Of a stretch of DNA of 64,000 nt, positions 4,614 through 29,638 are shown piece after piece; the first letter of the stretch is position 1, and each line of letters begins with the position of its first letter. Both the position numbers and the translations under genes were made by a program. Origin of the DNA: Arthrobacter woluwensis (GTDB lineage Bacteria > Actinomycetota > Actinomycetes > Actinomycetales > Micrococcaceae); contig NZ_JAUSXR010000001.1 in assembly GCF_030816155.1 (NCBI RefSeq), forward strand, positions 2,232,001 to 2,296,000, written 5' to 3'. Below the pieces are notes generated by a model. That model saw only the letters and a program-made list of their open reading frames with translations. It made no database searches and had not been told where the DNA came from.

Positions 4614-4812
4614 GGCTCACCCTCCGTTGATTTCTGTCATAGTGAAGTCATGTTATGAAACATCTCAATTCACGACAAGTAACATCTGGAGGCCTGTGGA
4701 CAACGCCTCGACGACCCCTGACTCATCCGAGAGCGCGCTGTTAGTCTGGAGGCACTGCGCGAGTCCGCCCCGCTCCCGCCTCCCCCACCCTTCCGGCCCT
4801 CGGAGAAGTCTC
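4614..4812. promoter_or_regulatory. Divergent tadA / muramidase promoter region
   Basis: This 199-bp gap is locally AT-richer than its surroundings between 4631 and 4690. It holds a perfect inverted repeat ATGTT-ATGA-AACAT at 4650-4663, a candidate operator. At 4695-4703 is TGTGGACAA, the reverse complement of the actinobacterial DnaA box TTGTCCACA. GGAGAAG at 4802-4808 is the ribosome-binding site for the plus-strand muramidase. I could not assign -35/-10 pairs with confidence. Confidence 0.5.
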
Positions 4813-7296
4813 ATGCACCACGGGTTCCAGCCCGCCACCCCAGCCCACCGTCGTCGTGCATTCGCCAGAAGCCTGGCATCCGCGGCACTGTCCACAGTGC
4901 TGCTTCTCTCCCTGGTCAACTCCGCGACCGCGGCTCCCACCCCGCAGCCGAGCGGCACCGCGACGCCGACTCGCACCACCCCTTCCACCACGGCCCCCAG
5001 CGAACCCGCGACGGCGGCACCCGCGACGGCGGCGCCCACGCCGTCCCAGAGCACCCTGACGCCGCCGGCGACCGAGCCGCTGCCCGACGGCGAGACGGCC
5101 GGCGATCCCGCCACGGCCCGGAACGCCGTGGGACGGATCGGCGCCACCATGCGGTCGAATGCCGACCGGAAACGCCTGGCGGTCCAGCCCACCGCCGGCC
5201 CACAGCCCAAGCCCGAGGCCTTGACGGCTCCCGACCATCCCGACGCCCCGGTCACCGGCGCGGGCAACGGCCCGGTCTCCTCCTCCGGTCTCTCCCGCAT
5301 GGCACCCGCCGCCTTCAGCACGGGCCACTGGCGCCCCGGCTTCGGTGTCCCGGGACAGGACGTCAGCGCCTGGCAGGGCACCGTCGACTGGACGGCACAG
5401 TGGAACCTCGGGTCTCGCTTCGCGTATGTGAAGGCGAGCGAGGGCTCCTATTACACGAACGCGAACTTCGCGTCCCAGTACAACGGATCGGCCAACCAGG
5501 GCATGGTGCGAGGGTCGTACCACTTCGCCATCCCGAGCTGGTCCTCGGGCGCGGACCAGGCCAAGTATTTCGTCGCCAACGGCGGCGGATGGAGCAGCGA
5601 CGGCATCACCCTTCCGCCCGTCCTGGACATCGAGTACAACCCCTACCAGGGCCGCACCGACCTCGGCTACAACTCCGGCGACACCTGCTACAGCCTGGGC
5701 GGCGCGCCCATGGTCCGTTGGATCACCGATTTCGGCAGCACCATGAAGCAGCTGACCGGGCGGTACCCGGTCATCTACACCACCACGGACTGGTGGAGCC
5801 GCTGCACCGGCAACTCGGCCGCGTTCTCCGACTACCCGCTGTGGATCGCGGCCTACCCGTCCTCCGCCAGCAACACCCCCGGGACGCTCCCGGCGAGCTG
5901 GCAGCAGTACAGCCTCTGGCAGTACAGCGACGAGGGCCCGTTCGTCGGCGACTCGAACGTCTGGAACGGCGATCAGGCCGGTCTGACGCGGTTCGCCACG
6001 GGCCGTGACGACTCGCGTGGCGCGATCGTCAACAAGTGGCTCGCCACCGGCGGAGCCACCGGTCCCCTGGGTGCCGCCAAATCCACGGCCGACATCTGCG
6101 GCCTGGTCAACGGGGGCTGCTACAGGCCCTATGCGAACGGCAACATCTACTGGAGCCCTGCGACCGGCGCGTACCCGGTCACCGGCAGCTTCTGGACCGC
6201 CTGGGGCCAGGCGAAGTGGCAGGCCGGAATCGGCTATCCGACCAGCGACGTCACGTGCCCGTCCGGCACCACCACGTGCCATCAGACGTTCCAGCAGGGC
6301 AACATCTACAACACCCCGAACGTCGGAACCTTCGCCGTGACCGCGGCTTATCTTCCTGCCTGGAAGGACGCCGGCTGGCAGTACGGCCTCGGCTACCCGA
6401 AGGGCAACGTCACGTGCGGGCTCTACGGCAACGGCTGCTACCAGCCCTTCACCAAGGGCAACATCTACACGAGTCCCACCACGACCCCGCAGGCGGTCAC
6501 CGGCGCCTACTGGAACGCGTGGGAAGAGGCAGGGTTCCAGCCGAACCTCGGCTACCCCACGGGCCCCGTCACCTGTGGGCTCTACGGCAACGGCTGCTAC
6601 CAGCCCTTCACCAAGGGCAACATCTACGCGGGCCCCGACACCGCACCCCACGCCGTCACCGGCGCGTACTGGAGCGCCTGGCAGGAAGCCGGATTCCAGC
6701 CGAACCTCGGCTACCCCACGGGCCCTGTCACCTGTGGGCTCTACGGCAACGGCTGCTACCAGCCGTTCACCAAAGGCAACATCTACGGCGGTCCTGGCAT
6801 CGCCCCGCACGCCGTCACCGGGATCTACTGGAATGCGTGGCGAGAGGCAGGGTTCCAGCCGAACCTCGGCTACCCGACCGGTCCTGTCACGTGCGGGCTC
6901 TACGGCAACGGCTGCTACCAGCCGTTCACGAAGGGCAACGTCTACAGCAGCCCTGCCTCGGGCGCCCATGCCGTGACCGGAGCGTACTGGACCGCCTGGC
7001 AGCAAGCCGGTTTCCAGCCCAATCTCGGCTACCCCACGGGCCCCGTCAGCTGCGGGCTCTACCGCAGCGGCTGCTACCAGCCCTTCACCCAGGGCAACGT
7101 CTACAGCAGCCCCACCTCGGGCGCCCACGCCGTCACCGAGCCGTACCGTGACGCCTGGCGCCAGGCCGGCTGGCAGATGGGCAAGCTCGGCTACCCCACC
7201 GGAGCCGCGGTTGCCGGGCTGGGATACCGCACGGTGCCGTTCGAGGGCGGGACCATGAACTGGACGGCAGCAGGGGTGAAGGTCAGCTACCGCTGA
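4813..7296 (+). CDS. Secreted GH25 muramidase with LGFP-type repeats
   Basis: 827-residue exported peptidoglycan hydrolase. The ATG at 4813 has GGAGAAG just upstream and opens a signal peptide ending near NSATAA. A Pro/Thr/Ala-rich linker covers about residues 40-130. The GH25 (lysozyme M1) domain runs from about 183 to 395, with the first catalytic Asp in DVSAWQG (183) and the D-I-E motif at 272-274. The C-terminal half is eight units of about 53 residues with the pattern W-x-A-W-(x)-A-G-(x)-L-G-Y-P-T-G, typical of LGFP modules thought to hold enzymes at the wall. Two conserved Cys per unit (T-C-G-L-Y and G-C-Y-Q-P) suggest disulfides, except in the last, degenerate unit. It is monocistronic and convergent with the next gene. 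Confidence 0.92.
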   Translation: MHHGFQPATPAHRRRAFARSLASAALSTVLLLSLVNSATAAPTPQPSGTATPTRTTPSTTAPSEPATAAPATAAPTPSQSTLTPPATEPLPDGETAGDPATARNAVGRIGATMRSNADRKRLAVQPTAGPQPKPEALTAPDHPDAPVTGAGNGPVSSSGLSRMAPAAFSTGHWRPGFGVPGQDVSAWQGTVDWTAQWNLGSRFAYVKASEGSYYTNANFASQYNGSANQGMVRGSYHFAIPSWSSGADQAKYFVANGGGWSSDGITLPPVLDIEYNPYQGRTDLGYNSGDTCYSLGGAPMVRWITDFGSTMKQLTGRYPVIYTTTDWWSRCTGNSAAFSDYPLWIAAYPSSASNTPGTLPASWQQYSLWQYSDEGPFVGDSNVWNGDQAGLTRFATGRDDSRGAIVNKWLATGGATGPLGAAKSTADICGLVNGGCYRPYANGNIYWSPATGAYPVTGSFWTAWGQAKWQAGIGYPTSDVTCPSGTTTCHQTFQQGNIYNTPNVGTFAVTAAYLPAWKDAGWQYGLGYPKGNVTCGLYGNGCYQPFTKGNIYTSPTTTPQAVTGAYWNAWEEAGFQPNLGYPTGPVTCGLYGNGCYQPFTKGNIYAGPDTAPHAVTGAYWSAWQEAGFQPNLGYPTGPVTCGLYGNGCYQPFTKGNIYGGPGIAPHAVTGIYWNAWREAGFQPNLGYPTGPVTCGLYGNGCYQPFTKGNVYSSPASGAHAVTGAYWTAWQQAGFQPNLGYPTGPVSCGLYRSGCYQPFTQGNVYSSPTSGAHAVTEPYRDAWRQAGWQMGKLGYPTGAAVAGLGYRTVPFEGGTMNWTAAGVKVSYR
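6193..7293 (+). repeat. Tandem 159-bp LGFP repeat units
   Basis: Units of exactly 159 bp begin at 6193, 6352, 6511, 6670, 6829 and 6988; a degenerate unit begins at 7147, and a less similar first unit lies before 6193. Units starting at 6352-6988 are nearly identical over long stretches, for example the G-L-Y-G-N-G-C-Y-Q-P-F-T-K-G-N core. The exact period preserves frame. Such DNA is prone to copy-number change and assembly collapse. Confidence 0.9.
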
Positions 7297-8755: not shown

Positions 8756-10183
8756 TCAGGCCCGGGCCGCAGAACGGCGGGCCTTGATCCTCCAGAGCAC
8801 GGCGCCCGCGAAGGCGATGACCGCAGCCACGCCCACGGTGGCGAGGCCGGTCACGACGTCGGTGGGCAGAAGGAGCAGCACGCCGACGTAGGCGACACCG
8901 ACCACCCAGCACAGGGCATAGACACCGAGGGCCCAGCCACCGGCGGCCCGTCGCCACGCCACGGCCAGATAGGCCAATCCGAGCAACAGGAACGAGATCA
9001 CCGAGACCAGCGCGACACCCTCGAGGTTTCCCTCCCTGGCCGGCCACAGCGCCAGGGCGCCCGAGGCCACGAGCACGGCCGGCGTGACGACGGAGAGCCA
9101 CCAGGTCACGTTGTCCGCGAAGAGCAGCGTGGAGGCATTGAGGTAGAGGAGATATCCCAGCGCGATGAGCGGCATGATCTGCGCCACCGGGATGAGGCTC
9201 TCCTTGCCACCCGCCATCACATGCACGACGAGGTTCGCCCCGGAGGATGCGGCCACCACGATGGCGAGCCCGGCCAGGCTCGCGGTGGTCATGGTGGACC
9301 GCATGCGCCGGACGCGGTCTTCTCCTCGGACCGACATGAGCGCGGGGACCCAGGCGTTGTTCAGGGCGCCGAGCAGCGTGATGCTGCCCAGCACGAAGAT
9401 CTGGACCTTCCCGTAGTCACCGGAGACGCCGCTGACCGCGACCACCGCGAGCAGGAAGGGGGCGCCCTGGGTCAGAAGCATGAGAGCCCCGGTGTGGGGC
9501 AGGACCGGAACGCCGATCGCCACGGCCTCCCGGATGGCTTCCGGATGGGTGAAGGGAATCACCGGACGGGCCACGATCACGGACAGGATGGCGCTCAGGA
9601 AGACGAGGAACCCGTAACCGGTCATGAAGATCGAGGCTTCCGCCCCGAACAGCAGCATGGCCACCAGCCCGCCGAGGTAGGCGGCCATGGAGGAGCACAG
9701 ACTCAGGACGACGAACATGACAGCGCGTCCCTGGGCTCGCAGGATGGCCTGGGCGGCGAGCACGGAGGCCTGCAGCCCCATCGCCACCAGGGCGATCGAG
9801 AAGCTGGTCGAACCCTTCAGGCCCGACGCGAAAAGCAGGCAAGCGCCCCCGGCGAGAAGCCCGAGCACCAGTCCGCCCAGCGTGAGGAACCCGCTGATCG
9901 CACGGGCCTTGGTATGGCCGCCCGGATCGAACCAGGCCTTGGTGATGGCCAGGGGCAGGCCGGCCGCGGCGAGAACCACGCCCACCTGGATCACCGACAC
10001 GGACAGGAACAGTTCCTGCCATTTGGCGTCATTGTTCAGGACATGGAGCGCGAACGGCTGAACGATGAAGATGCCGAGGCCCTGCATGAGGGCTCCGACG
10101 AGGTACAGGACCGAATTGCGCCCCGTGCGCACCGGTGCACCCGGGGAGGGTGCACCGGCTTCAGCGAGCTGCGGGTCACTCAC
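8756..10183 (-). CDS. Wzx-like polysaccharide flippase (MOP superfamily)
   Basis: 475-residue protein with about 14 hydrophobic helices spread evenly through its length. It starts with SVLYLVGALMQGLGIFIVQP, matching the N-terminus of O-antigen/teichuronic-type lipid-linked glycan flippases. It overlaps the legC stop by 8 bp and ends the dense part of the legionaminate operon. In this context it probably flips a lipid-linked, nonulosonic-acid-containing unit across the membrane. The family assignment is good; the substrate is inference from neighbours. Confidence 0.82.
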   Translation of the reverse strand: MSDPQLAEAGAPSPGAPVRTGRNSVLYLVGALMQGLGIFIVQPFALHVLNNDAKWQELFLSVSVIQVGVVLAAAGLPLAITKAWFDPGGHTKARAISGFLTLGGLVLGLLAGGACLLFASGLKGSTSFSIALVAMGLQASVLAAQAILRAQGRAVMFVVLSLCSSMAAYLGGLVAMLLFGAEASIFMTGYGFLVFLSAILSVIVARPVIPFTHPEAIREAVAIGVPVLPHTGALMLLTQGAPFLLAVVAVSGVSGDYGKVQIFVLGSITLLGALNNAWVPALMSVRGEDRVRRMRSTMTTASLAGLAIVVAASSGANLVVHVMAGGKESLIPVAQIMPLIALGYLLYLNASTLLFADNVTWWLSVVTPAVLVASGALALWPAREGNLEGVALVSVISFLLLGLAYLAVAWRRAAGGWALGVYALCWVVGVAYVGVLLLLPTDVVTGLATVGVAAVIAFAGAVLWRIKARRSAARA

Positions 10184-11327
10184 TGCCGAGGGCGAGCCAT
10201 TCCCGGACGCGGTCGATGACCCGCTGCTGGTCCTCGGGAGTCAGCTCGGTCGAGCACGGCAGGGACAAACCGCGGGAGAAGAGGTCCTCGCCGACGGCGC
10301 CGCCGACGCGCGCCTCGTCCTTGAGCGGCGGCTGCATGTGCAGCGGACGCCAGAGCGACCGGGATTCGAGGTCGACCTCGGCCAGGAAGTCCTGCAGTTC
10401 GTCGCGGGCATTCGCTCCGCGCGAGGCCGGCACCAGGATCGAGTACAGCCAGTACGTCGACTCCTGTCCCTCCAGAGCCGGAGGGGTCTGGATCTCGGTG
10501 CCGGCGAACGCCTCGTTGTACCGTGCGGCGATCTCCCGCTTGGTGACGACGAAACCGTCCAGGCGCTCCAGCTGGGCCACGCCCAGCGCAGCCGCGATGT
10601 TCGTCAGACGGTAGTTGAAGCCGATCTCGTCGTGGAGGTAGCCCCGGTCAGGCATCCTGGCCTGGGTGGACAGGTGCTTCGCACGGCGGGCGAGCTCCGG
10701 ATCGTCGGTGGTGAACATTCCACCACCGCCGGTGGTCATGATCTTGTTCCCGTTGAACGAGAACGCCCCCATGTCACCCACGGTGCCCACGTGCCGGCCG
10801 GCCAGAGGACCGGAGGTCCAGGTCGCGCCCAGAGCCTCCGCCGCGTCCTCGATCACGAGAATGCCGTATTCACGGGCCAGTTCGACGGCGGCAGCCGCGT
10901 CAGCAGGCTGGCCGAGGATGTGGACGATCTCGATGGCCTTCGGAAGCTTCTCCCCCGCGGCCTGACGGCGCTCGAGTTCGGCGCGGAGCTTGGGGACGTC
11001 CATGCACCAGGACTCGGCGTCGGAGTCCACCAGCAGCAGATCGGCGAACTGGTAGGAGGCCGCGTTGGAACTCGCCATGAAGGTGAAGTCCGAGACGGCC
11101 ACCATGTCGCCGGGCTGGATGTCCGCGAGTCGCATGGCGATGTGCAGAGCCGCGGTGCCGGAGGCACAGGCCACGGCATACTTGGCTCCGACGTAGTCCG
11201 CGAAACGTTCTTCGAAGTCGCTGACGAAATGGCCCACCGAGGAGACGAAGCCGCTGCGAACGGCTTCATTCATCAGTTCAGCTTCGCGCTCTCCGATGTT
11301 CGGGATTGCAAGAGGGACTCGCGACAC
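10176..11327 (-). CDS. legC: LegC-type aminotransferase of legionaminic acid pathway
   Basis: 383-residue PLP enzyme of the DegT/DnrJ/EryC1/StrS family. It should aminate the 4-keto sugar nucleotide made by LegB. The PLP lysine is K195 in FNGNKIMTTGGGG, and the phosphate-binding S-G-T-A-A is at 56-60. The start is a GTG at 11327 with GGAAAGG upstream; the open frame continues only inside legB. It lies 19 bp after legB and overlaps the flippase gene. The pairing with legB, ptmE and legG points to LegC over other StrS aminotransferases. Confidence 0.87.
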   Translation of the reverse strand: MSRVPLAIPNIGEREAELMNEAVRSGFVSSVGHFVSDFEERFADYVGAKYAVACASGTAALHIAMRLADIQPGDMVAVSDFTFMASSNAASYQFADLLLVDSDAESWCMDVPKLRAELERRQAAGEKLPKAIEIVHILGQPADAAAAVELAREYGILVIEDAAEALGATWTSGPLAGRHVGTVGDMGAFSFNGNKIMTTGGGGMFTTDDPELARRAKHLSTQARMPDRGYLHDEIGFNYRLTNIAAALGVAQLERLDGFVVTKREIAARYNEAFAGTEIQTPPALEGQESTYWLYSILVPASRGANARDELQDFLAEVDLESRSLWRPLHMQPPLKDEARVGGAVGEDLFSRGLSLPCSTELTPEDQQRVIDRVREWLALGSE

Positions 11328-11346
11328 GTTCTGCCTTTCCGACGAT

Positions 11347-12354
11347 TCAGCGGGAGTACTTGGCTGCGGCCGCGGCATCCACACCGCGGGCCTTGATCCA
11401 CTCGGCCGAGCGGCGCAGGCCCTCTTCCAGGCTGACCTGGGGGGCCCAGCCGAGCTCGGCGAGAGCCTGGGACGGGTCGGAGAGGAGGTGCATGACTTCG
11501 CTGGCCTCGGGACGGACGCGGACGTCTTCGGTGACGATCTCCGCGGTGGAGCCCGTGACCTTGGCGGCCATCTCGACGAGTTCGCCGATGCTGACGTCGT
11601 GGCCCGTGCCGAGCTGGATGACCTGGCCTTCGAGCGGGATCTGGGCCGTGGCGGCCTTGAAGAAGCCGTCCGCGGTGTCCTCCACGAAGGTGAAGTCACG
11701 ACGCGGGGTCAGGGAACCCAGGTGGATCTTCTCAGCACCGGCGATCATCTGTTGAAGAACCGTGGGGATGACGGCGCGGGCGGACTGACGCGGGCCGTAC
11801 GTGTTGAACGGACGCAGCACGACCACGGGGGTCTCGAAGGAGCTCGCCCAGGCTTCACAGAGCTTGTCGGCGGCGATCTTGGTGGCGCTGTACGGGGACT
11901 GGCCCCGCAGTTCGTTCTCGATCGTGATCGGGACGGTCTTCGGCGTGCCGTACACCTCGGAGGTGGAGGTGTTCACGAGGCGCGGGACGTCGTGACGGCG
12001 GACGCCCTCGAGGACGTTCAGGGTGCCCACGACGTTCGTCTCGACGTAGGAACGGGGAGCCTGGTAGGAGTACGGGATCGCGATCAGCGCGGCGAGGTGC
12101 AGCACCACATCGGAACCCTTGACCAGGTCGGAGACGAACTCGGCGTCGCGGATGTCACCCAGCTGCAGGTCGACGGCGTCGCGCTCCGCGGGGCTCAGGT
12201 CATCGAGCCAGCCGTAGGAGCCGTTGGAGTTGTAGACACACAGCGCCCGGACGTTCGCGCCCTCAGCGATCAGCCGCTGCGTGACGTGGCTGCCGATGAA
12301 GCCATCGGCACCGGTGACAACTACTGTCTTGCCCTTGATGTCGTTGTAGTTCAT
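11347..12354 (-). CDS. legB: LegB-type sugar-nucleotide 4,6-dehydratase
   Basis: 335-residue extended SDR. The N-terminal Rossmann motif VVVTGADGFIGSH binds NAD. The active site has Ser/Thr in NTSTSEVYG and YxxxK in PYSATKIAADK. RRDFTFVEDTADGF is a sugar-nucleotide binding region typical of LegB. Expected reaction: GDP- (or UDP-) GlcNAc to the 4-keto-6-deoxy sugar, the first committed Leg step. A GTG at 12363 that overlaps the ptmE stop is an alternative start; I prefer the ATG at 12354. AAAGG lies upstream of both, but with poor spacing to either. Confidence 0.88.
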   Translation of the reverse strand: MNYNDIKGKTVVVTGADGFIGSHVTQRLIAEGANVRALCVYNSNGSYGWLDDLSPAERDAVDLQLGDIRDAEFVSDLVKGSDVVLHLAALIAIPYSYQAPRSYVETNVVGTLNVLEGVRRHDVPRLVNTSTSEVYGTPKTVPITIENELRGQSPYSATKIAADKLCEAWASSFETPVVVLRPFNTYGPRQSARAVIPTVLQQMIAGAEKIHLGSLTPRRDFTFVEDTADGFFKAATAQIPLEGQVIQLGTGHDVSIGELVEMAAKVTGSTAEIVTEDVRVRPEASEVMHLLSDPSQALAELGWAPQVSLEEGLRRSAEWIKARGVDAAAAAKYSR

Positions 12355-12359
12355 GGTGT

Positions 12360-13418
12360 TCACTGGCCTTTCGCTGTTGCTAGGTCTTTGGGGGTTCCGA
12401 CGTCGATCCAGTCGGAATCAATGGGCCATGCGGCCACGGTCTTCGAGTCGTCGATGCACGCCTTGACCAGCTCGGGCATCGAGAAGGGTTCCATGTAAGG
12501 GACCATCGCCAGTGCCTGAGGAGAGACGGCGTAGATGCCGGTGCTGATCTCGAACTCCACCGTGGGCTTCTCCACCACGGAGCTGATCGCGCGTCCCTCG
12601 CCGATCTCCAGGACACCGAACGGCACCTGGTGGGTGTACGGCCGTGCCGCGACGGTCACGGCCGCGCCCTTGGAATCGTGGAACGCCAGCAGATCGCTCG
12701 CGGAGTAGCGGACCATGAGATCGGCGTTCGTCACGATGACGGCGTCCTTGATCTCCGGGACCTCATGGTGAAGCAGGCCCAGCGCGCCGGCCGTGTTGAG
12801 CGGCTTCGCGGGATCCTCATGCAGGTACTTGATGGTGCAGCCGAGGCGGCTGCCGTCGCCCAGGTGATCGATGATCTTCTCGGCGAGATGCGCGACCGAG
12901 ACGTAGATGTTGGTGATCCCGGACTCGACCAGGCCGAGGATGATCCACTCGATGATCGTCCGGTCCGCCACCGTCATGAGAGGCTTCGGGGTGTCCTTGG
13001 TCAGGGCGCCGAGACGGGTTCCCTTGCCGCCGGCCATGATGACGGCGAGGTTGTTCAGCTGCTTCCGCCCGACGATGTCGGTGAGGGTGTGGAGCCCCAC
13101 GAGCCGGCCGTCGTCGTCGACCACCGGGACCTCGCTGATCCGCAGGCTCCTCATCAGGTCCAGCACGGACGCCCGGGTGGCGCCGGTGCCCACGACGTGG
13201 GGGCTGCCGTTCGCGAATTCGAGGACGTTCGAGCCCAGCTCCGCTCCCCGGAGGAGACCGCGGCGGATGTCACCGTCGGTGAGGACTCCCTGCAGGACTC
13301 CGTCGGCGTCGGTGACCAGCGCTATTGCGGACGCCCCGCGATCGATGGCTTCGAGCGCCTCCCGCACAGTGGCCTCCGGACCGATGCACACGTTGCTCAG
13401 CGGGCCCTCAATAGTCAT
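12360..13418 (-). CDS. ptmE: PtmE-type sugar-1-phosphate guanylyltransferase with CBS pair
   Basis: 352-residue protein. Residues ~1-115 hold two CBS domains (ALVTDADGVLQGVLTDGDIRR; PVVDDDGRLVGLHTLTDIV). From ~120 there is a nucleotidyltransferase domain with AVIMAGGKGTRLGALTKDTP and the metal-binding TNADLMV. This architecture matches Campylobacter PtmE, which makes GDP-GlcN(Ac) for the GDP-linked legionaminic acid route. The start is ATG 13418 with GGAG upstream, four bases after the legG stop; the in-frame TTG farther upstream is not needed. CBS domains may sense adenine nucleotides. Its presence is the main argument that this pathway uses GDP-linked rather than UDP-linked precursors. Confidence 0.85.
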   Translation of the reverse strand: MTIEGPLSNVCIGPEATVREALEAIDRGASAIALVTDADGVLQGVLTDGDIRRGLLRGAELGSNVLEFANGSPHVVGTGATRASVLDLMRSLRISEVPVVDDDGRLVGLHTLTDIVGRKQLNNLAVIMAGGKGTRLGALTKDTPKPLMTVADRTIIEWIILGLVESGITNIYVSVAHLAEKIIDHLGDGSRLGCTIKYLHEDPAKPLNTAGALGLLHHEVPEIKDAVIVTNADLMVRYSASDLLAFHDSKGAAVTVAARPYTHQVPFGVLEIGEGRAISSVVEKPTVEFEISTGIYAVSPQALAMVPYMEPFSMPELVKACIDDSKTVAAWPIDSDWIDVGTPKDLATAKGQ

Positions 13419-13422
13419 AGAT

Positions 13423-14583
13423 TCAGTCTCCAACGGATATGTCAACGAATGTCTTGCTCAACCCGGTCTCAGGGCTGTCCACGACGACCTTTTCGATCAA
13501 TGCAGCAGCGTGTGAATCTCCGTAAGGATTGACCACATCACGGCTCAGGGCGCGAAACGGCGTCGTCAGAACCTTCTCAATACTAGCGCGGATCTCTTCG
13601 CGCTCATCGCGGGCGTGGAGCACGTTGGCCCCGTGTTCCCGGCCCCGCTGCCTGTCTCCGACGTTGACCACCGGCACGCCGAAACTGGCGGCCTCCAGGA
13701 TTCCCGACGAGGAATTGCCCACCAGAGCCTGCACGGTCGCCATGACACGGGGGTACAGCGGGCCCAGGCTTTCCCGGACGATCACGCCCGGAATCCCCTC
13801 GGCCTCGAGGGACTGGAGTTCCGCGATGATCTCCTCGCGTCCCGTGTCGAAGCCCGGGTACGTGAGAATCGTGGTGCCCGCCTGCGTGATGCTCTCCTCG
13901 AACACCTGACGGGCGAGTTCACCGGCCCCTCCGCGCATCTCGGCGGTGGGAGGGTGGTAGGTGACGAGCACCAGGGGCTGCACCAGCGGGGTGCCGAACT
14001 CGCGTTCGAACTCTTCGGCGCTCAGCGGGACGGGATCGGCGAAGCGGTCCAGTCCGGGGGCTCCGGTCTGATGGATCCGGTCCGCGGATTCCCCGAGCTG
14101 CGCGACACGCCGGGCGGCGCCGGCGGTGCTGACGCAATGCTGATCGGCCAGCTTGGTCACCGCGTGACGGACGCGCTCGTCCAGGGCCCCTTCCGTGACC
14201 TCCCCGCCGTGCAGATGGATCAGACGGATGCCCCGGAGGATGAATGGCGGGATCACGTACAGCAGTTCCCAGCGGTCGCCCAGGACGACGATCGCCTCGG
14301 GCTCCAGGTCACGCGCCAGATCGGCCATCTTGGCCGAAAGCCCGGCCCCGGCATGCGCCTGGGAGTCGGCGGTCAGGGTCTTGAGGTGGAGTCCCAGCTC
14401 GTGGTGGGTGAAATCTCCGTCGGTCAGCCCGGCCTCGAGCAGCCGCGCCTTCGCGGTCCCGTCCGGGAACCCGATGGCGGTGGCCACATGGAGGTCCACC
14501 GCTTCATCGGCGGCGAGCGCGGTGAGGACGGGACCCAGCGGGAACAGGTCGGCGCGGGTGCCGACGAACGCGAGGACCTTCAT
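13423..14583 (-). CDS. legG: LegG/NeuC-type hydrolysing sugar-nucleotide 2-epimerase
   Basis: 386-residue GT-B-fold epimerase. It removes the nucleotide from the diamino-trideoxy sugar and inverts C2, giving the substrate for the synthase LegI. Typical family stretches are KVLAFVGTRADLFPLGPVL at the start, LGDRWELLYVIPPFILRG, LIHLHGGEVTEGALDERVRH and VGNSSSGILEAASFGVPVVN. The start is ATG 14583, one base after the legI stop. NeuC (UDP-GlcNAc specific) has the same fold; assignment to LegG rests on legB/legC/ptmE next to it. Confidence 0.86.
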   Translation of the reverse strand: MKVLAFVGTRADLFPLGPVLTALAADEAVDLHVATAIGFPDGTAKARLLEAGLTDGDFTHHELGLHLKTLTADSQAHAGAGLSAKMADLARDLEPEAIVVLGDRWELLYVIPPFILRGIRLIHLHGGEVTEGALDERVRHAVTKLADQHCVSTAGAARRVAQLGESADRIHQTGAPGLDRFADPVPLSAEEFEREFGTPLVQPLVLVTYHPPTAEMRGGAGELARQVFEESITQAGTTILTYPGFDTGREEIIAELQSLEAEGIPGVIVRESLGPLYPRVMATVQALVGNSSSGILEAASFGVPVVNVGDRQRGREHGANVLHARDEREEIRASIEKVLTTPFRALSRDVVNPYGDSHAAALIEKVVVDSPETGLSKTFVDISVGD

Positions 14584-14584
14584 C

Positions 14585-15637
14585 TCAGACGAGGTCTTCA
14601 CGACGGAGCGCGGAGCCCGCCGTGACATTGCGCGCGGTGGTCTCGCCGATCACCAGCGACGACGGCGCGAGGCCGCCTTCCGGCCGGAGGATCGCGACGT
14701 CGTCGGCCGTGATCACAGCCCCCTGCGCGATGTCCCGCGCGGCATGGTACGAACGGCGGACGAGCGACGCGTTCGCCTCCTCGCTCGGCATCCGGCGCTT
14801 CCGGCCGTCACCCAGCGCACGGTGCGCCTCACGGACGGAGCGGACGTAGTCGGCGAACTCCTCGCGCTCCAGGGAGGCCGAGTGGTCCGGGCCGTTCCGG
14901 GTCTTGTCGGTGGTGATGTGCTTCTCCAGCAGGGTGGAGCCCAGCGCGGTCGCGGCGATGGCCGTGACGGCACCGGGGGTGTGGTCGGACCAGCCGACCT
15001 CCACCCCGAACTGCTCACGCAGCGCGGGGATCGCCCGGAGATTCGCTTCCTCCAGCGGCGCCGGGTAGGCGGAGACGCAGTGCAGCAGCACCGTCGCGGG
15101 CGCCTTGGCGGTCGCTTCGAGCGCCGCCGCGATCTCCTCAAGGGTGCCCATGCCGGTGGACACGATCATCGGGATCCCGAATTCGGCGATGGCCGAGAGG
15201 TACGGGGTGTTGGTGAGTTCACCCGAGCCGATCTTCAGGCCCGGCACACCGAGCTCGGCGAGCATCAGGGCGCTCTCGTAGTCGAACGGCGTGGAGAGGA
15301 AGGTGATGCCCCTCTCGTCACAGTGATCACGGAGCTCAGCCCACGCGGTGCCCGGCAGGGTGAGACGCGCCAGCATCTCCGACTGCGACTCCGCGAATCC
15401 GGCCTTCTTCTGATACGGCGTGGTCCCCGCAGAGCTCGTGACCAGCGCCTCCGGCTTGAAGGTCTGGAACTTGACCGCGTTGGCCCCCGTGTCCGCCGCG
15501 AGATCGATGAGCTCATGGGCGACGGCGACGTCGCCGTCGTGGTTGACGCCGGCCTCGGCGATCACGAAGATCTCTTCGCCCGCGCCGATGCGGTGGCTGC
15601 CGAAAGTGACGGAGGCGGGAACCTGATCATGCGTCAA
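14585..15637 (-). CDS. legI: LegI/NeuB-type nonulosonic acid synthase
   Basis: 350-residue enzyme that condenses phosphoenolpyruvate with a six-carbon amino sugar to give a nine-carbon acid. The NeuB barrel spans about 1-270 with FVIAEAGVNHDGD, AVKFQTFKPEALVT, GLKIGSGELTNTP and WSDHTPG. A C-terminal SAF/antifreeze-like domain (about 285-350) closes over the active site, as in NeuB. It overlaps the legH stop by four bases (ATGA) and is followed by legG after one base. NeuB, LegI and PseI are hard to separate by eye; operon context favours LegI. Confidence 0.9.
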   Translation of the reverse strand: MTHDQVPASVTFGSHRIGAGEEIFVIAEAGVNHDGDVAVAHELIDLAADTGANAVKFQTFKPEALVTSSAGTTPYQKKAGFAESQSEMLARLTLPGTAWAELRDHCDERGITFLSTPFDYESALMLAELGVPGLKIGSGELTNTPYLSAIAEFGIPMIVSTGMGTLEEIAAALEATAKAPATVLLHCVSAYPAPLEEANLRAIPALREQFGVEVGWSDHTPGAVTAIAATALGSTLLEKHITTDKTRNGPDHSASLEREEFADYVRSVREAHRALGDGRKRRMPSEEANASLVRRSYHAARDIAQGAVITADDVAILRPEGGLAPSSLVIGETTARNVTAGSALRREDLV

Positions 15638-16326
15638 TGTGCTGGGCCTTTCGTAGAGGGGAGCCGCCGGGCGGGCACTCCCACATATGTTGCCATACCG
15701 TCCAGTGGCCGGGTCGCCACGGCGCCGGCCCCGAGGACCGTCTCATCACCCAGCTCAAGGCCCGGGAGGACCCGGGAGCCCGAACCGAGGAAGGCCCCGG
15801 ATCCCACGCGGACCGCGCCCAGGAGAACCGAGCCTGGCGCGAGGTGCGTCCCGGCACCGACGAAGCAGTCGTGTTCCACCACGGCGGCGGTGTTCACGAT
15901 GACGGCCGTCCCCACCTGGGAGAGGGGTCCGACGTGCGCGTGCTCGGCGACCTGCGTGTAAGCGCCGAGTTCCGCCGTCACATCGACGGTCGCGCTCCGG
16001 GCGACGAGGGCCGGGGCGAGCGCGGACAGGCGGGGGTCCGCGAGCAGACGGTCCGCGATCCTGCGGCGCACCCCATTGGCGCCGATGCCGATCGTGATGG
16101 CCAGTCCCTCGGCGACGGCGAAATCGACACCCTCGTCGTCCGCGGTGAACCACCGCGGCAGAGTGCCGTCCAGGTTCCTGAAGGCTTCGGCCTCGGGCGA
16201 GCCGGCGACCGGTTCCACCGGCAGACCGCTGTCGCTGACGGCGGCCACACGATCCCCCCGGCCCCGGATGATGGACGCAAGACTCCGTGCGTGACCCGAC
16301 CCGCCCAGGATCAGCCAGCCGGTCAT
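15634..16326 (-). CDS. legH: LegH/NeuD/PglD-type hexapeptide acyltransferase
   Basis: 230-residue sugar acetyltransferase. An N-terminal Rossmann-like segment (GWLILGGSGHARSLASII) binds the sugar nucleotide, as in PglD and NeuD. From about residue 108 a left-handed beta-helix of hexapeptide repeats follows, with the catalytic-type His in AAVVEHDCFVG. Expected to N-acetylate the 4-amino group made by LegC. It is the first gene of the minus-strand leg operon, starting opposite ptmF across a 127-bp divergent gap. NeuD-type O-acetylation of the finished nonulosonic acid is the main alternative, but without this gene the pathway would lack its N-acetyltransferase. Confidence 0.8.
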   Translation of the reverse strand: MTGWLILGGSGHARSLASIIRGRGDRVAAVSDSGLPVEPVAGSPEAEAFRNLDGTLPRWFTADDEGVDFAVAEGLAITIGIGANGVRRRIADRLLADPRLSALAPALVARSATVDVTAELGAYTQVAEHAHVGPLSQVGTAVIVNTAAVVEHDCFVGAGTHLAPGSVLLGAVRVGSGAFLGSGSRVLPGLELGDETVLGAGAVATRPLDGMATYVGVPARRLPSTKGPAH

Positions 16327-16453
16327 CCCACTCGCCCCGTCAGTCCGGTCGGGAGCCCTGCTATGTTGTTCCGGGCGGATTCGCCGGGACGGCGGGACGC
16401 CGTTTCATGGTGGTCCATTACCGCCGCAGCACCTCAGAGCATAGATTGGCCAG
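16327..16453. promoter_or_regulatory. Divergent promoter of the two legionaminate operons
   Basis: A 127-bp gap between legH (minus) and ptmF (plus). Close to ptmF, TAGATT at 16442-16447 ends six bases before the ATG at 16454 and no Shine-Dalgarno sequence is visible, which suggests a leaderless ptmF transcript. A CTATGTT stretch near 16371-16377 may belong to the minus-strand promoter. Control from one shared gap would let both halves of the pathway respond together. Confidence 0.45.
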
Positions 16454-17539
16454 ATGACGTTCACATCATACTTGGATGGCTCCTCTGCGGCCGGGGAACT
16501 GGAAGCCCCACGGCTCTCCCCCGGCGCGGACCGCGGCCTGCGGGTCCTGGTCAGAGGCAGTGGATCGATCGGCGCCCGGCATCTCCGGGTGCTGGCGGGA
16601 CTCGGCGTCGACCGGCTCTACGTGTGGCCGGTGCGGCCCGGGATGGTGGTGGGCGACCGGCCTGACATCCCCCCGACGGCGGAGGTGGTGGACCGCTACC
16701 CGGAGGAGCCCCTGGACCTGGTCGTGATCGCGACCGACACCAGGCGCCACATCGAGGACACGCTCGAGGCTCTGGAGCACTCGCCGTCGGCGATCCTCCT
16801 CGAAAAGCCTGTGGCCCCCGACGTCGAGCAGGCGGCTCGCCTGCTCAGTCGCCCGCTGGCCGGCATCATCTCGGTCAGCGCCCCGCTCCGCTTCCACCAG
16901 GGCTTCGCGGTCGCCTCCGAGCTCCTGCCCCGCCTCGGCAGGATCACGAGCGCCCAGGTGGTCTCGCAGTCGTGGCTCCCCTCGTGGCGTCCTCAGCGGG
17001 ACTTCCGCAGCAGCTACTCCGCACGCAGGGAGGATGGCGGCGCACTCCGCGATCTGGTCCACGACATCGACTACCCCTGCCAGCTCCTGGGCGTTCCCGA
17101 ACAGCTCAAGGCCACCCTGGGCCAGGGGATCCTCGGCATCGAAGCCGAGGAAGCCGCTGATCTTCTCTGGAACACGCCCGCGGCCGTCCATGTCCGGCTG
17201 GATTACGTCACTCCGGTGAAGACGCGCGGAATCCGGATCGCGACCGCACTCGGAGCTCTCAGCTGGGACGTCGTGACTCATCGCGTCAGCCTTGAATGGC
17301 CGGGGGCGGTGGGCAGTGCCATCGACCGGTCCGAGCGGCTCTTCCCCGCGGACTCCGACGTTGATACGATCCTGGGCCGGCAGACCCTGGCGATTCTTCA
17401 GAGGTCCGGCCTGGATGCCGGGACCTCCATGAACCGCTTCCGTCCGGCGAGCCTCCTCGAGGGCGTTCAGGCCGTGGCGGTGTGCGATGCGGCGCGGCGC
17501 TCCGACCGGTCCGCAGGCGCCGAAACGGTAGTGTGGTGA
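16454..17539 (+). CDS. ptmF: PtmF-type Gfo/Idh/MocA oxidoreductase
   Basis: 361-residue NAD(P)-dependent sugar oxidoreductase family protein. After a 27-residue variable N-terminus, LRVLVRGSGSIGARHLRVL is the dinucleotide-binding fold and SAILLEKPVAPDVE carries the E-K-P motif of the family. ALRDLVHDIDYPCQLLG is the usual mid-domain region. PtmF and PtmA act early in the Campylobacter GDP-linked legionaminic acid pathway, in supplying the amino-sugar precursor; I hold their exact reactions loosely. It is the first gene of the plus-strand operon ptmF-legF-ptmA and is probably leaderless. Confidence 0.78.
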   Translation: MTFTSYLDGSSAAGELEAPRLSPGADRGLRVLVRGSGSIGARHLRVLAGLGVDRLYVWPVRPGMVVGDRPDIPPTAEVVDRYPEEPLDLVVIATDTRRHIEDTLEALEHSPSAILLEKPVAPDVEQAARLLSRPLAGIISVSAPLRFHQGFAVASELLPRLGRITSAQVVSQSWLPSWRPQRDFRSSYSARREDGGALRDLVHDIDYPCQLLGVPEQLKATLGQGILGIEAEEAADLLWNTPAAVHVRLDYVTPVKTRGIRIATALGALSWDVVTHRVSLEWPGAVGSAIDRSERLFPADSDVDTILGRQTLAILQRSGLDAGTSMNRFRPASLLEGVQAVAVCDAARRSDRSAGAETVVW

Positions 17540-17593
17540 TACTGCATTCCCGCCACGTCACCGTGGTCGAACATCACAAGGATGAAGCCAATC

Positions 17594-18406
17594 ATGAATG
17601 AGAATCCGTCCAGGCCCAAGGTGCTCGCGGTGATTCCTGCACGAGGCGGGTCCAAGGGACTTCCCGGCAAGAACATCCGTCCGCTCCTGGGCAAGCCTCT
17701 CCTCGCGCATTCGGTGGCGCTGGCCGGCCTTCTGGGTGATGATGTCCGCTGCATCGTCTCGACCGATGACGAGGGCATCGCGGCGGTCGCACGCGAGGCG
17801 GGCGCGGAGGTGCCCTTCATGCGGCCCGCCGAGTTCGCCAGCGACACGGCCCCCATGAGCGTCGTGCTCCGGCACGCGCTGTCCTCCATGGAGGAACTGG
17901 ACGGCACGTCCTATGACATGGTCCTGCTGCTGGACCCCACCAGCCCCACCCGGACCCCCGAGAGCGTCCGGGCGGCCATCGATTCCCTGGCCGGGTCCCC
18001 CGAACTGGACGGCGTGATAGCGGTGTCGGAACCGTTCTTCAACCCGACCTGGGTGGGCGTGAAGCCCGCCGAGGACGGCGGCTCCCACCTGGAGCGCTAC
18101 TTCAGCGAGGGCACCGGCGTGGTCCGCCGGCAGGACGTGCCGCGGTTCATGCGCATCAACGGCAGCTTCTACGTCTGGCGCTCGGACTTCGTCCGCCGTC
18201 TGGAGAACAGCTGGTTCGACGAGGGCAAGCACGGGTACGCCGAGATCCCCGAGACCCACGCCTTCAGCATCGACGACGAAAGCGAGTTCCGTCTGGTCGA
18301 GGCGGTGGTCGGCGCAGGGCTGGCCTCGCTCCCGGGGATCACCCCGCAGCAGGCGGCACAGCACGCGACGGCAGTCCAGGCAGCGAGCGAAGGAGCACAG
18401 GCATGA
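17594..18406 (+). CDS. legF: LegF/NeuA-type CMP-nonulosonic acid synthetase
   Basis: 270-residue cytidylyltransferase that activates the nine-carbon acid with CMP for transfer. The N-terminal motif AVIPARGGSKGLPGKNIRPL is diagnostic of the NeuA/LegF/KdsB class. LLLDPTSPTRTPESV and the C-terminal DDESEFRLVEAVV segments also fit. The ATG at 17594 was chosen because AAGGATGAAG lies at suitable spacing, whereas the ATG at 17582 directly abuts AAGG. Its stop overlaps the ptmA start by four bases. Confidence 0.88.
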   Translation: MNENPSRPKVLAVIPARGGSKGLPGKNIRPLLGKPLLAHSVALAGLLGDDVRCIVSTDDEGIAAVAREAGAEVPFMRPAEFASDTAPMSVVLRHALSSMEELDGTSYDMVLLLDPTSPTRTPESVRAAIDSLAGSPELDGVIAVSEPFFNPTWVGVKPAEDGGSHLERYFSEGTGVVRRQDVPRFMRINGSFYVWRSDFVRRLENSWFDEGKHGYAEIPETHAFSIDDESEFRLVEAVVGAGLASLPGITPQQAAQHATAVQAASEGAQA

Positions 18407-19197
18407 CCCCTCAGGATTCCCTCTTCTCCCTCCGGGGTCGCCGCGCACTCGTCACGGGTGGCAGCGGCCCTCTGGGCAGCGTGCTCGCCGACGCCCTGGC
18501 CGGCCAGGGCAGCGACGTCATCATCTCCGACGTCGATCCGGAGGCCTGCCAGCGGGTGGCCGAGGAGATCGCGGAGCGCCATGGCGTCCGGACGTGGGGC
18601 ATCGCGTCCAATCTGCTCAGCGCCGAAGGCACCACTGAGCTCGTGGAGGCCATCGACGGCCCGCTGGACATCCTCGTGAACAACGCGGCGTTCACCGGCA
18701 CCTCGGGCGTGCCGGGGTACGCGGTCCCGTTCGAGGAACAGAGTGATGAGGCGTTCGAGCTCGCCTCCTCCCTGAACCTGCGGGCCCCGTTCTCCCTCGC
18801 CCGCCAGCTCGCCCCCCGCCTCTCAGCCAGCCCCGGCGGATCCATCATCAACGTCTCGTCGATCTACGGCCTCGTCGGTCCGAACATGGGCCTCTACGAG
18901 GGCACCCGGATGGGCAATCCCGCGGCCTACGGTGCGACCAAGGGCGGCATCGTGCAGCTCACCCGGTACCTCTCGACCGTGCTGGCGCCGAACGTCCGCG
19001 TCAACGCGTTCGCTCCCGGCGGCATCGCCCGAGGCCAGGACGACAGCTTCACCGAGCGCTACGAGAAGCTCACCCCCCTGGGGCGGATGGCCACCGAGGA
19101 TGACTTCCGCGGCGTCGTCGTCTGGCTCGCCTCGGATGCCTCGCGCTATGTGACCGGGCAGACGATCGCCGTCGACGGCGGCTGGAGCAGCTGGTAG
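18403..19197 (+). CDS. ptmA: PtmA-type short-chain dehydrogenase
   Basis: 264-residue classical SDR. The cofactor motif RRALVTGGSGPLGSVLADAL is TGxxxGxG-like (here TGGSGPLG), NNAA follows in DILVNNAAFTG, and the active site is Ser in INVSSIYG and YxxxK in AAYGATKGG. It closes with VTGQTIAVDGGWSSW. The start overlaps legF by four bases. Position beside legF and ptmF is like Campylobacter ptmA; the precise substrate is not visible in the sequence. It ends the plus-strand operon and faces a convergent gene after 24 bp. Confidence 0.8.
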   Translation: MTPQDSLFSLRGRRALVTGGSGPLGSVLADALAGQGSDVIISDVDPEACQRVAEEIAERHGVRTWGIASNLLSAEGTTELVEAIDGPLDILVNNAAFTGTSGVPGYAVPFEEQSDEAFELASSLNLRAPFSLARQLAPRLSASPGGSIINVSSIYGLVGPNMGLYEGTRMGNPAAYGATKGGIVQLTRYLSTVLAPNVRVNAFAPGGIARGQDDSFTERYEKLTPLGRMATEDDFRGVVVWLASDASRYVTGQTIAVDGGWSSW

Positions 19198-19221: not shown

Positions 19222-20253
19222 TCAGGGCCGCAGGGGTTCGACGGCGGCCATCGCCGGCAGCTTCGGCAGCGGCGACGGAAGGTGCTTGAACGGGTGCCGG
19301 ATCCAGTGCCACGGGGACAGTCCGGCCTCCGTGGCGTGGGCTCCCTCGGGGATCTTCTTCAGGCCGAGCACCGTCTGCGCCTTGGTGAGCGGGCCGCTCG
19401 CCCAGTATTCGAGGAACGGAGCCGCCGTGCTCCCGTCCCAGCCGAGCAGCGCCTTGAGCTCCTCCGGGGTGCGCATATCCCCACGGCCCAGTTCCGCCTC
19501 GGCGATCCCCCGCAGGACCTCCTGCGGGGTCGACGGGTCGTGGAACTCCGGCCAGAAGTCACGCATCACGAGGCCGGGATCGGCCTGGGCGTTGTTCCCC
19601 AGCTTGAAGTCGGGACCGTACACCTCCACGTCCGCGCCGGAGACGCTCGCGTACATGATGGACGTCGACAGCCGGTTCGACACGACACGCGGCGCCTCAG
19701 ACATCATCCAGAGGATCCGGCCGATGAACTGAGGATCGCGACGGTCCCCCGCGCTGATCACGTCGTGGCCGGCGTCGGTCCAGGCCGACATGATCTCCTG
19801 GTTGTCCAGGTCATCGATGTGCAGGCAGACCGTGGCCGCGCCTTCGCGTTCGCGCACCATCCGCGCGTACTCGCCATGATCGCCGTCGACCTTCAGCAGT
19901 GCCGTCCCATGCAAGGGCAGCACGAGCGTGCGCTCACCGCGGGCCGGAACGGAGCCCGCCTTCCGGGCGCCGTCCAGCAGGTACAGGTAGGGCGCTCCCA
20001 CGGCGTGCAGCATCGGTGTGCCGTCCTCGAAGAAGTTGCCGGGGTCGTTGGGGCTCCAGCCCCGGGAGGTGCTGGTCCAGGAGAGGCGCCGGCGCTTGGG
20101 ACCCCAGCTGGCGAAGTCGCCGAACTGTGCCGTGATGGGGCTGCTCACGGTCCATCCGTGCTGAATGAGCCCGGAGACGTGCCGCAGCCGCTTGAGCCCG
20201 CAGTACAGGCCGAAGACGGCGGAGTGACCGTAGTAGTGATTCTGGATATCCAT
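19222..20253 (-). CDS. Unrecognised protein, possibly a sugar transferase
   Basis: 343-residue soluble protein that I cannot place in a family. It starts MDIQNHYYGHSAVFGLYCGL and contains GLIQHGW, then an S-N-R-L-S-T-S-I-M-Y segment (around residue 194) followed by ADVEVYGPDFKL. An I-Q-H-G stretch early and a Ser/Thr-rich strand-helix late are reminiscent of GT-B transferases, including polysialyl/CDP-sugar-using ones, but this is weak. No signal peptide or membrane helix is seen. It lies between the legionaminate operon and a glycosyltransferase operon, preceded by a terminator hairpin, so it has its own promoter. Its place makes a glycan role likely; a nonulosonate transferase is my favoured guess. 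Confidence 0.5.
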   Translation of the reverse strand: MDIQNHYYGHSAVFGLYCGLKRLRHVSGLIQHGWTVSSPITAQFGDFASWGPKRRRLSWTSTSRGWSPNDPGNFFEDGTPMLHAVGAPYLYLLDGARKAGSVPARGERTLVLPLHGTALLKVDGDHGEYARMVREREGAATVCLHIDDLDNQEIMSAWTDAGHDVISAGDRRDPQFIGRILWMMSEAPRVVSNRLSTSIMYASVSGADVEVYGPDFKLGNNAQADPGLVMRDFWPEFHDPSTPQEVLRGIAEAELGRGDMRTPEELKALLGWDGSTAAPFLEYWASGPLTKAQTVLGLKKIPEGAHATEAGLSPWHWIRHPFKHLPSPLPKLPAMAAVEPLRP

Positions 20254-20296
20254 GAAGCGTCAGGCACCTTCAGAGGTCTGGGGGCGGACAACGAAA

Positions 20297-20334
20297 ATGC
20301 GCCGCCGGATTCGTGAACGGTCCAGTCGGCGCAT
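20297..20334 (-). terminator. Intrinsic terminator of the GT2 operon
   Basis: Arms ATGCGCCG (20297-20304) and CGGCGCAT (20327-20334) pair with a 22-nt loop. On the minus strand the stem is followed by TTTTCG. It begins 12 bases past the expected stop of the glycosyltransferase at 20347 and separates it from the unrecognised gene downstream. Confidence 0.65.
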
Positions 20335-20346
20335 CAACGTCGGAGA

Positions 20347-21244
20347 TCAGGGACGGACTGCGTGCGCGGCGAGCTTGCGCAGGCCGGGCCACATGCCCTT
20401 GGAGATGACCTTCGGGGTCAGGGAGGCCGCGTTGAGGCGGGACGTCAGGTGCCACTTGGCGGCGCGGGCGGCCTGCGGCCAGCCACTTGGCCGTGAAGTC
20501 ACGGACGCACTCGTCGAAGAAGGCGCGCTCCTCGGCGAAGCGGCGGCCGTCGAGCGCACGGACCGACGAGTCGGACTCACGGTGGCGGCGGTACTGGAAG
20601 CAGACCGTGGAGACCACGGCCATGCGGCCACCGGACAGGATGATGTCGGTCGCCAGCGCGAGGTCCTGGACCACGTTGTACTGGGGACGGAAATCGTGGT
20701 GCTTGACGGCCTCGGAGCGCCACGCCACCGACGGGAAGTACAGCCAGTCGCCCACCATGAGGCTCTCGGCGATCGCTTCGCCCTCGACGACGGCCTCGCT
20801 GCTGCCGCCGACGAGCTTGTGGCGGAGGTAGGTCTTCACCTTGTCGCCGAGCGGCTCGTAGACGGCGCCGTTCTCATCGATGACCTCGACGCCGGGCTGC
20901 ACGATGCTGACGGACGGGTCCTGGAACGCCTTGCGGACCGTGCTCAGGTAGTTGGGCAGCATGATGTCGTCGGCGCCCATGATGATCACGATGTCGTGCT
21001 CCACGAGGCCGATGCACTTCTTGTAGTTGCCGTTGGCCCCGAGGTTCTCCTCGTTCCGGTAGTACCGGACGCGGTCGTCGCCCTCGACCAGGCCGTTGAA
21101 GTAGGCCGGGAGGCTCTCGTCCGGGTAGCCGTCGTCGACGATCGTGAACCGGAAGTCCTTATCGTCCTGGGCCAGCACCGAATCCACGGCGGCCTTCATC
21201 ATGGCCACGTCGCCGTAGTACGGCAGCATTACATCAATCGTCAC
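20347..21244 (-). CDS. Family 2 glycosyltransferase with a frameshift near the C-terminus
   Basis: GT-A enzyme adding a sugar at the cytoplasmic face. It opens TIDVMLPYYGDVAMMKAAVD; ADD in IIMGADDIMLP is the metal-binding motif. Reading breaks around 20463-20480. In the start frame the tail becomes Pro/Arg-rich and runs to 20270, through the terminator at 20297-20334. In the other frame it continues AARAAKWHLTSRLNAASLTP and stops at 20347, just before that terminator. One surplus base (for example in the GG at 20472-20473) explains this; repaired, the protein is about 298 residues. It could be a sequencing error or a real mutation. The start overlaps the DUF2304 gene by four bases. Confidence 0.8.
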
Positions 21245-28768: not shown

Positions 28769-29634
28769 TCAGAGCTCCTGCGCGAACTTGACTTCCAGCT
28801 TGCGGAAGGTGAACTGGCCGAGAGCCAGGACCGCAGCCGAGACGATGAGAGCCACCGGGAGCCACAGCTCGAAGAGCATCGGCGGGGCGGCCTGGGTGGC
28901 CGAGCCCCCCGTCGTCGTGGACCAGAAGGCGTAGTGGAAGAGCTCGACGCCCACGGTGACCGGATTCGCCTGATACACCGCGAACCAGAACTCGCCGAGG
29001 CGGTCGTGCACCATGTTCCACTGGTACATGACCGGGGATGCCCAGGTGGCGACCATGAGCATCATCTCGACGAAGTTCTCCGAGTCCCGGAAGTACACGT
29101 TGACGGAACTGAAGAACAGACCGAGCCCCACGGAGAGCATGGCGAGCACCACGAATCCCGCGATGCCGGCCATCAGCCCGAGCAGCGTGGGACGCCACCC
29201 TGTGAGGAGACAGCCGATCAGCAGCACCACGAGCTGCGGGAGGAAATGGGCCGCCGAGACGAAGACCGAGGCGACCGGGAACAGCTCGCGGGGCAGGAAG
29301 ATCTTCTTGATCAGCCCGCTGTTGTAGACGATCGACCTGGCCGCGTTGTTGAGGGCTTCGGTGAAGAAGTTGATCATCACGATGCCGGAGAAGAGGTACA
29401 CCGCGTAGTTCTCGACGTTGCGGTTCTGCCCGAGGAAGACACCCATGGCGACGTAGAACACCACGAACTGGATCGCAGGCTTCACGTAGGACCACAGGAC
29501 GCCCAGCACCGAGCCGCGGTACCGGAGCTTGATCTCCTTCTGCACCAGCAGCTTGAGCAGATACCTCTGCCGGAAGACATCCTTGAGCCCGTGCCCGATC
29601 CCAGGCCGGATCAGGGGGGTGTCCTGGAGCGAAC

Positions 29635-29638
<4 letters not shown>
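28769..29638 (-). CDS. wzm: Wzm-type polysaccharide export permease
   Basis: 289-residue ABC-2 permease with six helices. It begins with an amphipathic KDVFRQRYLLKLLVQKEIKL stretch and then RGSVLGVLWSYVKPAIQFVV, both hallmarks of Wzm/TagG proteins. Its start overlaps the GlfT2-like stop by four bases. With Wzt it should export the finished lipid-linked polymer. Confidence 0.9.

Follow-up and report, generated by a model that had tools for sequence, protein, structure and literature searches.

The closest described counterpart of the locus considered here is the pathway to cytidine monophosphate (CMP)-legionaminic acid (Leg) in Campylobacter, which comprises LegB, LegC, LegH, LegG, LegI and LegF together with PtmE, PtmF and PtmA. 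PtmE makes guanosine diphosphate (GDP)-N-acetylglucosamine (GlcNAc) in this route (PMC4481668, PMC13317340). In a Plesiomonas table that names the Campylobacter homologues, PtmF is an oxidoreductase and PtmE a nucleotidyltransferase; the published tables give the same functions for Plesiomonas and point to Vibrio and E. coli homologues (PMC4481668). Across 12,939 surveyed genomes, the GDP route was reported from 93 of the 96 belonging to C. jejuni, and no other host is named in the portion available to us; the authors of the survey warn that strict thresholds lead to false negatives (PMC7725333). For Bacillus subtilis, the transferase and the acceptor of CMP-Leg are described as unknown, in a genome that lacks each of the four sialyltransferase families (PMC7439481). 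We have analysed a stretch of 64,000 nucleotides from Arthrobacter woluwensis (the window), in which a Leg-type gene cassette (8756-19197) adjoins a gene for an orphan glycosyltransferase (GT)-like protein (19222-20253). The host genome is a single 3.5-Mb contig with a completeness rated at 95.4%.

The window resembles the Campylobacter pathway in having a candidate for every cluster-encoded step. It differs in its actinobacterial host, which has no flagellin match, in the adjoining orphan family, and in that PtmF and PtmA are missing from two of 15 actinobacterial loci; the use of GDP here is an analogy drawn from the genes. A Sphingomonadaceae plasmid (CP099622) is also alike, with LegB, LegC, neuC, neuB, an acetyltransferase, a nucleotidyltransferase, a cytidylyltransferase, an oxidoreductase and a Gfo/Idh/MocA oxidoreductase side by side, but all of its genes lie on one strand and that locus has no match to the orphan family. 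Because these nine functions stand in a row on CP099622, and because of the published Plesiomonas, Vibrio and E. coli tables, the Leg pathway itself is not new. The GDP-type set is under-reported outside Campylobacter, and in a literature searched by topic the Leg set appears little reported in Actinobacteria. The more novel part is the orphan gene, which ties the window to loci for pseudaminic acid (Pse). It lies just outside the range covered by the earlier sequence-only reading (8756-19197) and was missed there:

19222-20253, minus strand: orphan GT-B-like protein, 343 amino acids (aa); proposed CMP-nonulosonate transferase, from its predicted model and its linkage to Leg/Pse genes

Our joint reading, which we consider moderately probable, is that the window holds a cassette for CMP-Leg, or a close epimer, together with an orphan transferase to an envelope glycan, at a site where Leg and Pse cassettes are exchanged.

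Fifteen of 295 genomes from the host's family, Micrococcaceae, carry the orphan gene, and in 14 of these it lies 0.1 to 8.6 kb from a synthase of the 350-aa type, that is, within 10 kb; the exception is Rothia kristinae (G081). A NeuB-family match occurs in 116 of the genomes, and 15 places were chosen as LegI/PseI type by length and coverage. The orphan gene is found within 10 kb of 14 of these 15 places. The other (L031), which lacks the orphan gene, is a divergent second Pse-like locus in a genome (G192) that also has a Leg locus. As a control, the neighbouring DUF6541 gene was found in 170 of the same 295 genomes; thus, linkage to nonulosonate genes is not general to the genes of this region.

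A scan of public genomes, with one genome per species and two conserved motifs, so that only members keeping both motifs are visible, yielded 43 orphan loci, all titled Actinomycetota. Thirty-eight of them neighbour Leg or Pse genes, at up to 10 kb in 36 cases and at up to 18 kb in two. The 10-kb flanks contain Leg genes in 11 loci and Pse genes in 25; farther out on the same contig, L065 is linked to Pse genes at 15 kb and L066 to Leg genes at 18 kb. Three loci (L060, L062 and L069) lie on contigs of 4 to 12 kb, with a PseI elsewhere in the genome. No LegI/PseI-type synthase was found for L077, a short metagenome contig, or for L051, from Rothia kristinae. The family sample and the list of 43 loci overlap in their genomes and are not independent of each other. 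A case that is independent of both came from a plasmid collection, in a search that was not aimed at nonulosonate genes: a Nonomuraea gerenzanensis member of 278 aa (32% identity) lies 4-10 kb from PseC-, PseB-, PseF-, PseG/H- and PseI-like genes.

Comparison of the predicted genes establishes that cassettes have been exchanged at one chromosomal site, with Leg genes in the window and Pse genes in a close relative. The congener G047 has PseB, PseC, a PseF-like gene, PseG/H, PseI and the orphan protein between the same neighbours as the window. The flanks are closely similar (GH25-LGFP protein 95.5%, GT2 88.6%, DPM-like 98.1% and DUF6541 63% identity), whereas the cassette genes are only 28 to 55% identical. 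Arthrobacter horti (L018/L042), a third representative of the genus, carries Leg genes. A fourth (G019) has neither the orphan gene nor a synthase, and its GH25 gene adjoins a distant DUF6541. In a tree of 50 orphan proteins, supported branches force at least three changes between Leg and Pse (three across the 5-95% range of bootstrap trees); five of the 50 rows carry no Leg/Pse label and were left out of this count. The changes fall on the Micrococcaceae Leg group, on Humibacter sp. RRB41 and on two Arsenicicoccus species.

The window encodes at 4525-7293 a GH25 lysozyme-type protein with seven stretches of LGFP repeats, which is also conserved in the congener, at the same cassette border.

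The orphan protein has no match in Pfam (E up to 10) or NCBIfam, its family profile has no match among Protein Data Bank sequences at E up to 10, and it has no membrane segments. Its relatives are called hypothetical where they are sensibly named, and one source has a relative as ParB. The function of the family was sought in the literature by topic searches, since text is not searchable by sequence. The named proteins nearest to those of the host belong to Arthrobacter and its relatives, and the orphan protein is 88% identical to its counterpart in Arthrobacter silvisoli. An alignment of 116 family members has 43 invariant columns, many of them in an N-terminal DxQNHxYxH ... GxxQHGWT region; others are HxT- and N...T...Y-type positions. 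The AlphaFold model (predicted local distance difference test 86.6, predicted TM-score 0.88) finds its best structural matches among GT-B-type proteins, namely nucleotide-sugar 2-epimerases, TagF, which polymerises teichoic acid, macrolide and plant glycosyltransferases, and a capsule polymerase whose structure was determined with CMP. As the TM-scores are low and the Z-values tied, the GT-B fold is a pointer only. The proposed use of a CMP-sugar is what the orphan protein would share with the sialyltransferase families GT38, GT42, GT52 and GT80, but it matches none of their profiles at E up to 10. No sialyltransferase family is among the best 50 structural matches listed, which does not rule one out. 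In the host's own genome the GT52, GT38 and GT80 profiles have no match; the GT42 profile has none either, but the GT42 control was likewise silent.

We think there is an even to slightly better than even chance that the orphan protein is a transferase that uses a CMP-nonulosonate. This proposal, drawn from sequence, model and linkage, best explains why the gene stays through the Leg-to-Pse swap and why its product looks like a glycosyltransferase and lacks membrane segments. It is an evenly balanced question whether the orphan protein represents a new nonulosonate transferase family, confined to Actinomycetota as far as seen and unrelated in sequence to known sialyltransferases, that has gone through at least three changes of Leg/Pse donor and allows cassettes to be exchanged at one site. 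If so, sister species would display different sialic-acid-like sugars on envelope glycans that are otherwise similar. For the attachment of Leg and Pse in Gram-positives, a family that tracks both gene sets across Actinomycetota offers a single testable candidate.

The cassette and the gene that flanks it beyond the orphan are as follows, with the names of the predicted products:

8756-10183, minus strand: Wzx-like membrane protein, 475 aa, with 13 hydrophobic segments by a simple Kyte-Doolittle count
10176-11327, minus strand: LegC, pyridoxal phosphate aminotransferase, about 383 aa (TIGR04181 365 bits, PseC 255)
11347-12363, minus strand: LegB, 4,6-dehydratase (TIGR04180 413 bits, next model 160)
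12360-13418, minus strand: PtmE, CBS pair plus nucleotidyltransferase, 352 aa (PF00571 in two stretches, PF00483 129 bits)
13423-14583, minus strand: LegG, hydrolysing 2-epimerase (NeuC/LegG model TIGR03568 280 bits)
14585-15637, minus strand: LegI, nonulosonate synthase with NeuB and SAF domains (TIGR03569, NeuB, 378 bits against PseI 262)
15634-16326, minus strand: LegH, NeuD-family acetyltransferase (TIGR03570, NeuD, 136 bits)
16454-17539, plus strand: PtmF, Gfo/Idh/MocA oxidoreductase (PF01408)
17582-18406, plus strand: LegF, CMP-nonulosonate synthetase (PseF-type cytidylyltransferase TIGR03584 111 bits; PF02348)
18403-19197, plus strand: PtmA, short-chain dehydrogenase (PF13561 145 bits)
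20270-21244, minus strand: GT2 glycosyltransferase flanking the cassette (PF00535)

The ten genes named within 8756-19197 are long uninterrupted open reading frames that fill this range in two divergent runs, LegH-LegI-LegG-PtmE-LegB-LegC-Wzx-like from 16326 downward on the minus strand and PtmF-LegF-PtmA from 16454 on the plus strand. The start of LegC at about 11327 was set from relatives of 383 aa; the likely starts of PtmE (13418) and LegG (14583) are both ATG. The order LegH-LegI-LegG-PtmE-LegB-LegC is common to all 15 actinobacterial Leg loci, the window counted, and is therefore not due to chance. The sequence-only reading had seen candidates for all steps of the cluster and a Wzx-like flippase here, and open reading frames, NCBIfam and Pfam bear this out. 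Only LegG passes its curated NCBIfam cut-off (280 against 235.9 bits). LegB (413/475), LegC (365/420), NeuB (378/399.65), NeuD (136/160.8) and PseF (111/205.7) fall below theirs, and PtmE, PtmF and PtmA have no NCBIfam model at cut-off among the matches listed. The margins are about 250 bits over the next model for LegB, 110 over PseC for LegC and 116 over PseI for NeuB. The closest solved chains to LegG are the GDP/uridine diphosphate (UDP)-diacetylbacillosamine 2-epimerases 5zlr and 5xvs. The Wzx-like protein has no Pfam match and shares 54.5% identity with the membrane protein encoded in the congener's Pse locus. The Campylobacter route also includes PgmL/GlmM and GlmU; the cluster, where alone they were sought, contains neither, and no genome-wide search was made.

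These comparisons support a Leg-type rather than a Pse-type set, as judged from predicted proteins. In a tree of 39 synthases, 12 LegI rows and 21 PseI rows lie on opposite sides of a branch (SH-aLRT supports of 98 and 99), with the window among LegI; the rows are actinobacterial only and come from these loci, with no named Campylobacter LegI, and some long branches meet. Against the Pse cut-offs the window reaches 60 of 408 bits for PseB and 262 of 340 for PseI, neither being attained, while the congener locus L022 scores 478 and 469, both above. A Pse identity of the window pathway is rejected on these model scores and the LegI clade. L022 has the Pse pathway (PseB-C-H-G-I-F) at the same site and with the same orphan family, where the window has LegB/LegC, PtmE and LegG instead. 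A plain N-acetylneuraminic acid pathway is unlikely because LegB and LegC are in the same operon. The sequence-only reading had called the synthase LegI and the dehydratase LegB; when LegI, NeuB and PseI, and LegB and other dehydratases, were separated by profile models, the LegB and LegC models won clearly and LegI stood apart from the PseI clade, in agreement with that call. Aligned with the Neisseria enzyme, the window LegI keeps the NeuB metal-binding and lysine/glutamate motifs.

Among the 15 Leg loci (the window, L019, L020, which is the same organism as L079, L021, L037-L044, L050, L081 and L082), PtmE is present in all. PtmF and PtmA are present in 13; the Leg loci of Arthrobacter sp. 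SW1 (L041) and L019 lack both, and PtmF has no match at E 1e-5 anywhere in either genome. As both loci keep PtmE without PtmF and PtmA, these two appear to be dispensable, unlike PtmE. In the 25 named Pse loci, PtmE matches reach 54 bits at most. The retention of PtmE, a predicted nucleotidyltransferase, favours a GDP-linked route. Its best models, a bifunctional sugar-phosphate nucleotidylyltransferase, the uridylyltransferase MurU and a mannose-1-phosphate guanylyltransferase, lie within 9 bits of each other, so its nucleotide cannot be called from sequence; solved relatives do not separate the guanosine triphosphate (GTP) from the uridine triphosphate (UTP) option either. Ten matches to PtmE relatives were found on plasmids and two were examined. 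CP099622 has the full Leg set, and the second, from Azospirillum, has no Leg genes in the 19 kb around the match; the nucleotidyltransferase family is thus not confined to Leg loci.

On the observed gene content, family and clade membership, linkage and site exchange we have built a model in which all enzymatic steps, as well as the nucleotide, the acceptor and the role of the transferase, are proposals. PtmF and PtmA would feed in an amino-sugar phosphate and would be dispensable. PtmE would activate the amino-sugar phosphate, probably with GTP, and LegB, LegC, LegH and LegG would convert the nucleotide sugar to a 2,4-diacetamido sugar, which LegI would condense with phosphoenolpyruvate. LegF would turn the resulting nonulosonate into a CMP-sugar, giving CMP-Leg or a close epimer in the cytoplasm. 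We propose that the orphan protein then uses the CMP-sugar to add the nonulosonate to an envelope glycan assembled on a lipid carrier, and that the Wzx-like protein flips the lipid-carried glycan outward. The same site in close relatives is taken by a Pse set, accompanied by another branch of the orphan family.

The main alternative is that the Leg cassette is an ordinary one and that the orphan protein is a glycosyltransferase for another sugar, either the acceptor of the nonulosonate or the next one, kept with a conserved repeat unit. A GT-B-like model alone does not name a donor, and the GT2 gene at 20270-21244 is also conserved, being matched at more than 200 bits in 12 of the 15 synthase loci from the family sample (window counted). 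We hold this alternative improbable. The orphan gene follows Leg and Pse sets across several Actinomycetota families while other neighbours differ, a GT2 counterpart is absent from, for example, L043, L044, L050 and L053-L058, and the profiles of known sialyltransferases find nothing in the host's genome, with one of the four controls silent.

Two further alternatives leave the orphan protein aside and concern the sugar. The route might run on UDP-linked sugars, as in a Bacillus-type Leg pathway, with PtmE acting as a uridylyltransferase-like or other nucleotidyltransferase. Such a UDP-linked route has been reported in Bacillus subtilis (PMC7439481), and the PtmE model scores do not tell GTP from UTP enzymes. 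Among solved structures, LegB lies nearest to 6bwl 'Pal', which we take to be a UDP-GlcNAc enzyme. A dedicated nucleotidyltransferase would nevertheless be superfluous for UDP-GlcNAc, yet all 15 Leg loci keep it, including those that lack PtmF and PtmA, and we judge the UDP route unlikely. The product could also be a 4- or 8-epimer of Leg or another 5,7-diamino nonulosonate, since the genes do not fix the configuration at C4, C7 or C8. We think this quite unlikely, as LegB, LegC, LegG and LegI are all nearest to named Leg or Neu models.

An envelope polysaccharide is the probable acceptor of the nonulosonate, because GT2 genes and genes for an acyltransferase, an ABC-2 transporter subunit, a GlfT2-like transferase and a UDP-galactopyranose mutase lie downstream. 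No Flagellin_N match was found in the host's genome (95.4% complete), with a control that matched in four of 14 genomes, and on this result flagellin is rejected as the target. The suggestion of the sequence-only reading that the sugar serves a wall or capsule glycan rather than flagella gains support from the same absence.

The region 28769-32996 of the window, with the ABC-2 transporter subunit, the GlfT2-like galactofuranosyltransferase and the UDP-galactopyranose mutase, forms a galactan-type envelope polymer cluster that adjoins the cassette. The GT2 gene at 20270-21244 has a frame change near its 3' end in comparison with three relatives, which have intact copies; this may be a lesion or a sequencing error.

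Unusual synthases were also seen elsewhere in the Micrococcaceae. Three loci (L032:8533-10773, L033:8431-10671 and L034:8954-11194) encode proteins of 747 aa with a CBS-like N-terminus followed by NeuB, SAF and a xylose-isomerase-like barrel. They lie near a cytidylyltransferase-like gene, and in two of these proteins Pfam scores the CBS part at about 25 bits. From their domain make-up these proteins appear to be an unusual fused nonulosonate synthase. Two more loci (L035:9437-10342 and L036 near 9275) each encode a NeuB protein of about 300 aa near a cytidylyltransferase-like gene; the L035 protein, the one of the two that was scanned, has no SAF domain. These proteins possibly represent a third nonulosonate route in the family.

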